Positions 55,736 through 57,180 of a stretch of 64,000 nucleotides of DNA are shown here, piece by piece. The stretch is from Luteibacter sp. dw_328 (GTDB taxonomy: Bacteria > Pseudomonadota > Gammaproteobacteria > Xanthomonadales > Rhodanobacteraceae), in assembly GCF_018449605.1 (NCBI RefSeq), contig NZ_JAAVUW010000003.1:372001-436000 (forward strand), written 5' to 3'. The notes beneath the pieces are model-generated. The model saw only the letters and a program-made list of their open reading frames with translations, searched no databases and was not told the DNA's origin. Both the position numbers and the translations under genes were made by a program. Each line of letters starts with the position of its first letter. Positions within the stretch are counted from its first letter, which is position 1.

Positions 55736-55905
55736 GGGAGTGTCCTTTGTCTGAGGGATATGCCCGCGGGATTCCGCGTGCAGCGCGATAATCGCACCCG
55801 TTTGACTGAAGAAAGGGCCGATTCGGCACCGATCGGGCTCCTTTGCCGAATACGTTCACTCCCAACCCGTAGGCAGAAAAAAAGGTTCTTCGCGGCATGC
55901 CGGGG

Positions 55906-55968
55906 ACGCCGAAGACGGTGAGGCGCAGAGCCTTCGGCGTGCAGACGTGGAGGCGCAGAGCCTTCGGT
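55906..55968. repeat. Hairpin and 30-base-period direct repeats
   Basis: AGGCGCAGAGCCTTCGG occurs at 55921-55937 and 55951-55967, a period of 30 bases. The first copy also pairs with ACGCCGAAG at 55906-55914 to form a 9-bp perfect stem (partner CTTCGGCGT at 55932-55940). The second copy runs into the terminal repeat of element A. Confidence 0.75.
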
Positions 55969-56095
55969 GCCCACCCTCGCTGCTCAGACACGTCCTCCGC
56001 GTTTCGTACCGGAAAGGCCGCTGCGCGGCCCGTGTTCTTATTGGCCTACGGCCGCTCCACTTGTGCGGAACTCGCCTCGAGGGTGGGCACCGAAG
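55962..56095 (+). repeat. Palindrome-ended element, copy A
   Basis: A 134-base element bounded by perfect 18-base inverted repeats, CTTCGGTGCCCACCCTCG (55962-55979) and its complement (56078-56095). Inside are the conserved CTGCTCAGACACGTCCTCCG, a small hairpin GGCCGC-TGC-GCGGCC, and CTCCACTTGTGCGGAACTCG. It is matched in the opposite orientation by copy B. Confidence 0.85.
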
Positions 56096-56121
56096 ACTCT
56101 CCCCATCCCTGAGGTTCGTGC

Positions 56122-56193
56122 GGGTCGAGCCGACAAAGCAGCGCCGCTTCGGCTGCTGGCTCGTCGCCATCGCCATCGCCAAACGTTCGACCC
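56122..56193. other. Structured stretch between the element copies
   Basis: CGAGCC (56126-56131) pairs with GGCTCG (56158-56163), and inside it AGCAGC (56137-56142) with GCTGCT (56152-56157). An alternative outer pairing is GGGTCGA (56122-56128) with TCGACCC (56187-56193). No gene fits. It may be part of a non-coding RNA or of a composite element. Confidence 0.4.
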
Positions 56194-56352
56194 CCAGCGC
56201 GCCCGTCGAGATCGTCCGCGCGAGGCAGCGCAGCGGCGAGGAAAACGCGCGCCGCGCCGGGAATGACTTATCTGCACGACCGCCGTAACGGTCCGAGTTG
56301 GCGGCCACACGCACTCCAGCGGCTCTCCTTCCCGCTGACCGTATCGTCGTGA

Positions 56353-56494
56353 GAGACCTTGGTGTCCACCCTCGAGGCGAGTTCCGCACAAGTGGAGCCG
56401 CCGTAGGCCAGTAGGTACATGGGCCGCGTGAGCGGCCTTTCCTTGTCGAACGCGGAGGACGTGTCTGAGCAGCGAGGGTGGACACCAAGGTCTC
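56353..56494 (-). repeat. Palindrome-ended element, copy B
   Basis: A 142-base copy of element A on the opposite strand. It is bounded by perfect 22-base inverted repeats whose inner part is CTTGGTGTCCACCCTCG and its complement. Read in the same sense as copy A, the interior is mostly identical, with GGCCGC-TCAC-GCGGCC in place of the A hairpin. Confidence 0.85.
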
Positions 56495-56642
56495 CCCGCG
56501 AGACGCCCAAGTGTACGAAGCGACGGCGAAGCCAAGCCCGCGAGGCCGAAGGCGAGCCATGCGCGAGGTGCGAGGTGCGCGGTGCGAAAGATGCCCCGCC
56601 CGAAACTCGAGCGCCCGGGCCCCGGTAGTCCGCGAAGAGCCC

Positions 56643-56671
56643 AAAAAAAAGGCACCCGAAGGTGCCTTTCG
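56643..56671 (-). terminator. Rho-independent terminator of slyD
   Basis: On the minus strand GGCACC-TTCG-GGTGCC is followed by eight T, about 22 bases after the slyD stop. Confidence 0.9.
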
Positions 56672-56691
56672 TGTTGCGCTGAGCGAGTCGA

Positions 56692-57180
56692 TCAGTGCGC
56701 AGCGTCGCCGTTCGGATGCGCGTGGCCGTGCTCGATCTCTTCCGGCGTCGCGTCACGGACGCTCTGAACGTCGACGTGGAAGGTCAGGGTCTTGCCGGCC
56801 ATCGGGTGGTTGAGGTCGACGTCGACGACGCTCGAGCCGATCTTCTGCACGACGACGACGCGGCTGCCGCCTTCCTTCAGCGAGAGGACGGTCGACGCAC
56901 CCGCCTTGAGGCCCTTGCCCTGCTGCGGGAAGTACTTCTTCGGGACGCGCTGGGTCAGGCCGTCCTGGCGCGGACCGTAGCCCTGCTCCGGCTCGATCGT
57001 GACGTCGAAGGTGTCACCGACGGACTTGCCCTCGAGGCCGGCTTCCAGGCCCGGGATCAGCTGGCCGTGACCGAGCAGGATCCAGAGCGGCTCACCACCC
57101 TCCACCGAGCTTTCGACCTGCTCACCATTGACGGTGAGGGTGTAGTGGAACGAGATGACCTTGTCCTTGCCAGCCTGCAT
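56692..57180 (-). CDS. slyD: FKBP-type peptidyl-prolyl isomerase SlyD
   Basis: The 162-residue protein has the SlyD arrangement: an FKBP core (VISFHYTLTVNGEQVESS, LIPGLEAGLEGKSVGD), an inserted IF chaperone domain (RVPKKYFPQQGKGLKAGA), and the FKBP end HPMAGKTLTFHVDV. It has a short His-containing tail (EHGHAHPNGDAAH), much shorter than the metal-binding tail of E. coli SlyD. The start at 57180 (MQAGKDKV) fits the family; the longer frame does not. Confidence 0.93.
   Translation of the reverse strand: MQAGKDKVISFHYTLTVNGEQVESSVEGGEPLWILLGHGQLIPGLEAGLEGKSVGDTFDVTIEPEQGYGPRQDGLTQRVPKKYFPQQGKGLKAGASTVLSLKEGGSRVVVVQKIGSSVVDVDLNHPMAGKTLTFHVDVQSVRDATPEEIEHGHAHPNGDAAH

Follow-up and report, generated by a model that had tools for sequence, protein, structure and literature searches.

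A MITE-like unit of Luteibacter that probably carries a divergent pair of structured-RNA elements of an Rsm-type family

Two palindrome-ended elements, A and B, face away from each other in the window (the whole stretch of 64,000 nucleotides of Luteibacter sp. dw_328 analysed here, contig NZ_JAAVUW010000003.1, positions 372,001 to 436,000), and they raise the question of whether the paired differences between their arms reflect a folded RNA, a folded DNA or the ends of a mobile element.

55957..56100, minus strand: element A, a putative structured-RNA element of ~144 nt; closing stem 55957-55979 / 56078-56100
56352..56495, plus strand: element B, a putative structured-RNA element of ~144 nt; perfect 22-bp closing-stem arms 56353-56374 / 56473-56494

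As the original prediction had it, elements of 134 and 142 bases were found here in opposite orientation and 257 bases apart, with perfect arms of 18 bp in A (55962-55979 / 56078-56095) and 22 bp in B. The stem of A is longer than its perfect arms and includes one mismatch, read as C.A on the plus and as G.U on the minus strand. At their full 23 nt the arms of the two elements (AGAGCCTTCGGTGCCCACCCTCG versus AGAGACCTTGGTGTCCACCCTCG) are equal in length and four substitutions apart, and the C-G pair that had seemed to be missing from the arms of B is an alignment slip. The paired arm changes that had been reported are real in that all four substitutions stay paired, one of them in A only as C.A / G.U. 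Similarly, the internal hairpin GGCCGC/GCGGCC keeps its stem and changes its loop (TGC in A; TCAC in B, in A's direction), just as described.

A against B is a single comparison, because the A-spacer-B pair is itself repeated, and the case for covariation rests on many copies. A search of the genome returned 40 long matches of the element, and the long-form model placed it at 65 sites (79 match rows minus 14 second-strand matches at the same place), a recurrence that excludes chance and disposes of the possibility, raised at the outset, that no other copies exist. These 65 places hold 28 neighbour pairs, the window pair among them, all 28 divergent and separated by 202-264 bases, in addition to 9 single copies, two of which stand at contig starts. 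Among 30 fetched loci of this genome, 26 had a nearby inverted second copy, 86.7-93.0% identical to A of the window. Neighbours in all fetched loci, nearly all of them from Luteibacter, were divergent in 118 cases, tandem in 20 (14 of these from G008 and G011, in which fragments of a single longer element may have been scored as neighbours) and convergent in 1, and a pattern scan of the named genomes found 79 stretches, all in Luteibacter. A and B are divergent halves of one repeated unit, at 55884-56641 in the window, and two independent insertions of one element are ruled out, the A-spacer-B pair being what is repeated.

55884..56641, no strand: whole composite unit, MITE-like, 758 bp, no transposase gene inside; inverted ends, many genome sites, empty site in a relative
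55884..55905, plus strand: left terminal inverted repeat GGTTCTTCGCGGCATGCCGGGG, ISL3 type; 46 genome matches, like the ends of ISL3 insertion sequences
56620..56641, minus strand: right terminal inverted repeat GGCTCTTCGCGGACTACCGGGG (minus-strand reading); inverted partner of the left end
55877..55883, no strand: target-site duplication, left copy, A7; single A9 at the empty site of L297
56643..56650, no strand: target-site duplication, right copy, A8; one extra C at 56642
56651..56669, minus strand: intrinsic terminator hairpin GGCACCTTCGGGTGCC of an FKBP-type gene, the unit being inserted in its T-tract
55913..55967, no strand: tandem repeats of ~30 bp that copy the outer end of the A stem (..AGAGCCTTCGG), variable in number among units, between the left end and A
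56101..56351, no strand: spacer between the divergent elements; middle less conserved than most of A and B, both ends conserved
56101..56131, minus strand: conserved block upstream of the RNA 5' end of A, GGCTCGACC...CCTCA; possible promoter or binding site
56321..56351, plus strand: counterpart of this block on the B side, GGCTCTCC...ACCGTA, likewise conserved and upstream of the element

Conservation per 20-base bin across 26 aligned units of this genome was 0.94-1.0 in most bins of A and B and 0.77-0.90 in the lower ones, which cover the variable loops and the edge of A, while the spacer scored 0.65-0.87 in its middle and 0.89-0.96 at its two ends. Some spacer frame is often open, as is usual at this G+C; each frame was free of stops in at most 14 of the genome's 25 divergent spacers, and spacer lengths cover all three residues modulo 3. 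A conserved protein encoded in the spacer is thus unlikely. The composite had no match in plasmid or phage collections, and carriage by either was dropped as a reading. No paper describing this repeat was found in a literature search whose scope lay mostly outside subscription journals.

The ends of the unit (GGTTCTTCGCGGA.., pattern GGTTC(T/A)TCGCGGA..) lie outside A and B, and the pattern had 46 matches in the genome at ≤3 mismatches compared with 0 for the reversed control. In the fetched loci, nearly all from Luteibacter, 118 of 148 distinct ends (sought with ≤1 mismatch, so that more diverged ends are left out) touch a run of ≥5 T or A, as against 114 of 20,000 random 10-mers. A hairpin foot of ≥5 bp, terminator-like, stands at the run in 73 of 84 T-run ends; for the remaining T-runs in these loci the figure is 261 of 749. 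Units with two recognised ends (n = 32, 308-819 bp) contain no transposase; the type of run is the same on both sides in 28 of them, and 18 are flanked by an exact duplication of ≥7 bp, where 500 rounds of partner shuffling gave 5.3 on average and never more than 13. Duplications that are not homopolymers read TTTAATAA, CTTTTTTA, AAACAAAAA and TTATTTT. The exceptions among the 32 are one unit with a T-run on its left and an A-run on its right and three in which the test used detected no duplication.

The target of the window unit can be seen in its relatives. The FKBP-type gene on its right is present in 23 of 23 genomes of the genus, and in one of these (G010, locus L297, ~91% identical) the site is empty, with a single A9, no insert and a left flank that is alike by eye, whereas the window genome has 7 A to the left and 8 A to the right of the 758-bp unit. 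Most of the relatives read have a terminator-like hairpin at the same FKBP place, mostly without an insert. By eye, this terminator carries a unit in two further species (G006, L296; G022, L303), which, set against the empty site of G010, looks like recurrent insertion or loss.

Ends and targets of this kind also belong to ISL3 insertion sequences. For example, in another genome of the genus (G014) a gene for an ISL3-family transposase (the L059 protein; NF033550, E 8.5e-88) lies behind GGTTCATCGCTGAT, directly after the T-run of a terminator, and in G020 a decayed ISL3 relic (L060) sits between GGTTCTTCGCGGAA and its partner, with T8/T7 flanks. Ends and duplications of this kind also mark ISL3 elements of other Rhodanobacteraceae genera, and in some of these elements the frame is full length; the 8-bp duplication TTTTCTTT flanks the L322 element on both sides, L341 has TAAAAAAA and L320 has CAAAAAAA if the terminal C is assigned to the element. 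The target-site duplication of ISL3 elements is 8 bp, which fits the L322-type loci. Other ISL3 loci in the same comparison had no such pair of ends. Because ISL3 insertion sequences of the same bacterial family share its ends and target, the unit is best classed, from sequence comparison, as a MITE-like ISL3 passenger. It combines ISL3-type terminal inverted repeats and a target duplication of ~8 bp with multiple copies that hold no transposase; an autonomous partner was not found in the same genome, the ISL3 gene with such an end being that of G014 in the same genus. In the window genome (G000) the L059 protein had no match at 1e-30, and the sole PF01610 hit was weak (1.1e-4). A weak PF01610 hit occurs in every one of the 23 Luteibacter genomes. 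Such hits were set aside as transposase candidates, since according to NCBIfam a tail domain is common to ISL3 transposases and DesA-type desaturases, a possible cause of the hits. The unit may now be immobile in this genome. Separately, ISL3-type ends or pieces of transposase occur at contig borders in G014, G027 and G103, suggesting insertion-sequence copies that collapsed in the assemblies.

The palindromic arms have a different character from these ends. A repeat of REP/ERIC type whose mobile ends would be the 22-bp arms was ruled out, as the arms vary among species yet stay paired and the ends of the unit lie elsewhere. Nor do the arms of A and B resemble recognised terminal repeats, being helices whose sequence shifts from species to species without loss of pairing. 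The suggestion of a small mobile element was therefore right in that a mobile element is involved and wrong in its extent, the mobile unit being the 758-bp composite with its separate ISL3-type ends and not the elements of 134 and 142 bp. It could still be that the unit is purely selfish, with A and B serving as inner inverted repeats for transposition (sites for a transposase or a host factor) and their structure a by-product. The ISL3-type ends and duplications would suit such a unit, as would the single copies of the type end-A-end (308-364 bp), but RNA pairs also occur in Luteibacter loci that lack these ends and in other genera, the arms vary among species and remain paired, unlike binding sites, and fetched G020 loci, including the decayed ISL3 copy L060, had no match to A or B with the short-form profile. 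We consider a purely selfish unit distinctly improbable.

The reading that we prefer, of a MITE-like shell around an RNA pair, has to reckon with seven loci with flanks read in G001, G003, G008 and G011, in which the RNA elements are present and the ISL3-type end is absent; the shell is thus not essential to the pair, and the RNA pair is probably older than its ISL3-type shell. Other repeats are found nearby. A palindrome GGTTCATTCGC..GCGAATG stands beside RNA pairs that lack the ISL3-type end (flanks of L102, L108 and L118 in G003, G008 and G011), similar GGTTCACTCGC stretches occur inside some units of the window genome (L018, L020), and REP-like sequences of the GTAGGAGC..GCTCCTAC type lie beside or inside units (left flanks of L003, L010 and L024; spacers of G001, G003 and G011).

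The structure of the short form was assessed over many copies. Merging of fetched copies with identical context reduced 276 to 271 places, 217 of them full length, and from 36 representatives 30 diverse copies were aligned (A1, strand opposite the window's A) to give the covariance model R1. The best 150 of 212 R1 matches, a few of them long or fused, formed the short-form alignment (A2) with 145 distinct copies. In these 145 copies 99.1% of pair cells were standard, 15 of 36 pairs had changed on both sides, and double-changed cells numbered 318, where shuffling gave 68.6 on average and sliding of the partners no more than 27, cell counts that overstate the number of independent events since copies of the same genome share ancestry. 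Arm changes across these copies are compensated, and the uncompensated changes that would have spoken against a conserved fold did not appear.

The closing stem, being an inverted repeat on both strands, provides a fair test of the strand. Its mismatches, read on the modelled strand of the short forms, were G.U in 133 cases, C.A in 9 and other in 17; counted once per genome and pair, G.U stood at 40 and C.A at 9 (one-sided binomial 4.6e-6). This bias would fit a minus-strand RNA for A and a plus-strand RNA for B. The initial proposal of selection on a folded structure is therefore strongly supported by covariation over many copies, and the G.U bias of the short forms favours RNA over DNA as the folded molecule.

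Sequence upstream of the predicted RNAs is conserved as well. On both sides of the spacer a block GGCTC(T/G).., followed by CCTCA, lies at a near-constant distance from the RNA 5' end, with CCTCA 6-16 nt before that end in 141 of 281 copies compared with 7 in one flank shuffle (648 arm pairs found, 374 sense-oriented pairs kept, 281 after removal of duplicates and short flanks). The block resembled no known promoter type that we recognised and is possibly a promoter or a binding site.

Some Luteibacter species carry a form of ~240 nt that has the same two molecule ends and an extra domain of ~100 nt, and A and B are short forms of this predicted RNA. In 13 long copies picked by hand from six genomes (A3), 35 of 73 pairs were double-changed, with 97 double-changed cells compared with 21.6 in shuffles, and 9 of the 13 had at least two GGA hairpin loops. 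In G001 several pairs join a short member to a long one. A single long pair exists in the window genome (C20:4796-5465), and by eye its two members each show GGA in both hairpin loops. Hairpin loops with GGA are much rarer in the short form: among the 145 short copies, 99 have none, 44 have one and 2 have two, while a GAGGA stretch is kept in 138. Binding of RsmA by A and B is doubtful because of the 99 copies that lack a GGA hairpin loop; the GAGGA stretch may be a remaining contact.

With the long-form model (R2) the family proved far wider than the genus. Matches were found in at least 91 of 147 genomes of the Rhodanobacteraceae at E 0.01, from at least 21 of 26 genera (14 candidates scored per genome), and across the order in at least 60 of 250 genomes at E 1e-6, 40 of its own family and 20 of one second family (8 candidates scored per genome); at this threshold and scoring depth no third family was represented among the 60. 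A restriction of the RNA to Luteibacter, to which the short model had pointed (R1; 8 of 117 genomes), was overturned by R2 and reflects a limit of the short model. Copy number can be as high in other genera, a less strict search giving 60 matches in G024 (another genus), 64 in G084 and none in G028. Pairs are again divergent, in 11 of 11 neighbour pairs of G024 (among 59 listed places) and 5 of 5 of G032 (14 places). The covariance model and the count of copies per genome that had been proposed as a check thus gave 65 places in this genome and relatives in other genera.

In an alignment of all 40 matches from 28 chosen loci of other genera (A4), which was fitted to the model and includes a wrong-strand match (L386, minus) and one cut match, 66 of 73 pairs were double-changed. 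GGA stands in both hairpin loops of 36 of these 40 copies, mostly as CANGGAUG or CAGGA with stems varying; the four exceptions are two G032 copies, the wrong-strand match and the cut match, and one of the two loop-less G032 copies is paired with a member that has the loops. A strong hairpin GGTTACTTTTCTTTG..CAAAGAAAAGTGAC was seen by eye just downstream of the RNA core in L362, L363, L368 and other loci of several genera outside Luteibacter (L361, L370 and L371, which are cut by contig ends, were left out of this reading), and may be a terminator or a further repeat.

These alignments also bear on whether A and B might act as DNA, through single-stranded or cruciform arms, or as palindromes kept perfect by template-switch correction, with no transcript at all. 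Both strands fold well, the long set shows a weak strand bias (GU 19, CA 11), correction of palindromes can keep arms paired without selection, and G.T is milder than A.C in single-stranded DNA too. On the other hand, the closing stem of the short form accepts G.U and rarely C.A (133 versus 9, or 40 versus 9 genome-by-pair states), there is covariation in many of the short inner helices, and in copies from other genera GGA is kept in the loops while the stems change, which is typical of protein-binding RNA. A role as DNA is accordingly improbable in our estimation. Much the same standing applies to the view that the long RNA left the short forms behind as dead remnants, which the MITE amplified and which are drifting today. 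Short forms mostly lack GGA hairpins, and 63 of the 65 copies in the genome lie outside the long pair, as expected of remnants; against this, within one genome conservation over most of A and B exceeds that of the spacer middle and the flanks in the same units, and the near-complete set of intact pair cells comes with compensation, so that drift is an unlikely account.

Comparison with Rfam places the family near a known one. Over A and B of the window there was no match at the gathering cut-off, and at E ≤5 only weak matches appeared, at 56607-56700, outside both elements. The RNA core of L358, from another genus, matched RF01731 (TwoAYGGAY) at 43.8 bits (cut-off 43), and L362 and L363 scored 40.6 and 40.4 bits over the full model, just below the cut-off. 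Long Luteibacter forms fell below the TwoAYGGAY cut-off or gave no match: six loci with longer forms gave no TwoAYGGAY match, and L350, one of seven more Luteibacter loci, scored 33 bits. The claim that no named family matches consequently stands for A and B, with no Rfam match over them, and falls for their longer relatives, which are close to TwoAYGGAY. A match to an already named element was found only among these relatives. An additional Rfam match, to Xoo8 sRNA (E 1.5e-13, 56.3 bits, cut-off 90), was seen at 2694-3100 of L353 on the minus strand, in the window's own genome (C20). TwoAYGGAY is predicted in one published account to bind CsrA (PMC4333381), and a 2010 listing gives it from human gut, gamma-Proteobacteria and Clostridiales.

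Taken together, the best explanation, and a probable one, is that a MITE-like unit of Luteibacter carries a divergent pair of structured RNAs of an Rsm-type family. An ISL3-family transposase would move the unit, judging by its ISL3-type ends, and comparison of sites shows insertion into T-tracts, typically those of intrinsic terminators, with a 7-8-bp duplication. Its cargo is A on the minus and B on the plus strand, structured-RNA elements of ~144 nt each, in which a closing helix of ~23 bp is kept by compensatory change. Each element is probably transcribed outward, from the conserved sequence at its own end of the spacer. Both belong to a large predicted RNA family that the Rhodanobacteraceae share with one further family of the order and that is frequently arranged in divergent pairs. 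The full form of ~240 nt, with two GGA-loop hairpins of the type bound by CsrA/RsmA, is by its anatomy most likely an RsmA sponge, and the short form of the window has lost the GGA-hairpin domain and retained the scaffold and the GAGGA stretch. It is a tentative suggestion that the short form still has a trans-acting role, either as an Rsm-circuit small RNA or as a decoy partner, and that it was multiplied by riding on the MITE. More speculative is the notion of an RNA-cargo transposable unit, in which insertion-sequence ends captured a divergent pair of RsmA-circuit RNAs and spread it to dozens of terminator-proximal sites, with copy number setting the dose of the sponge and of a GGA-less tuning partner, the family extending over two bacterial families with divergent pairing as a feature common to the genomes examined; we think it rather doubtful.

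The locus brings together three things rarely found in one place, namely a mobile unit that targets terminator T-tracts, a covarying structured RNA at 65 places of a single genome and a likely link to CsrA/RsmA. A terminator T-tract is a target that spares coding sequence. A and B themselves are shortened relatives of RNAs for which sequestration of a global gene regulator is predicted. The full-length relatives, in the Rhodanobacteraceae and the second family, have two near-ideal GGA hairpins, many copies and divergent pairs, and they make the old prediction that TwoAYGGAY binds CsrA directly testable in harmless soil bacteria. They also raise the questions of why a genome should hold dozens of copies of a sponge RNA and why in some pairs the binding loops are present in one member and absent from the other.

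Several known systems resemble parts of this arrangement. REP/BIME, REPIN and ERIC sequences are palindromic intergenic repeats with many copies, some of them in inverted pairs, like the elements described here, but the unit differs from them in size, in its ISL3-type ends and in its target duplications. ISL3 insertion sequences and their MITEs share with the unit terminal repeats of the same kind, 7-8-bp duplications and insertion into T-tracts; in contrast to them, the unit holds a predicted structured RNA pair and no transposase, and its partner was not found in this genome. TwoAYGGAY (Rfam RF01731, clan CL00106) has, like the relatives of A and B, an outer stem and a junction with two GGA-loop hairpins, whereas A and B had no Rfam match and the short forms mostly lack both hairpins, and the RNA described here occurs in divergent pairs at up to 65 places per genome. 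The short forms of the window have the outer closing stem of TwoAYGGAY without its gathering score or its two AYGGAY-type loops, and A and B should not be filed under that name because its defining loop feature fails (99 of 145 copies without a GGA hairpin loop). Finally, the sequestering small RNAs of the CsrB / RsmX,Y,Z type carry GGA hairpin loops, as do the full forms here with two. RNAs of that type come from few dedicated genes with many sites each, in contrast to the many copies with two predicted sites described here, and by its anatomy the full-form family would resemble a CsrA/RsmA sponge distributed over many loci.
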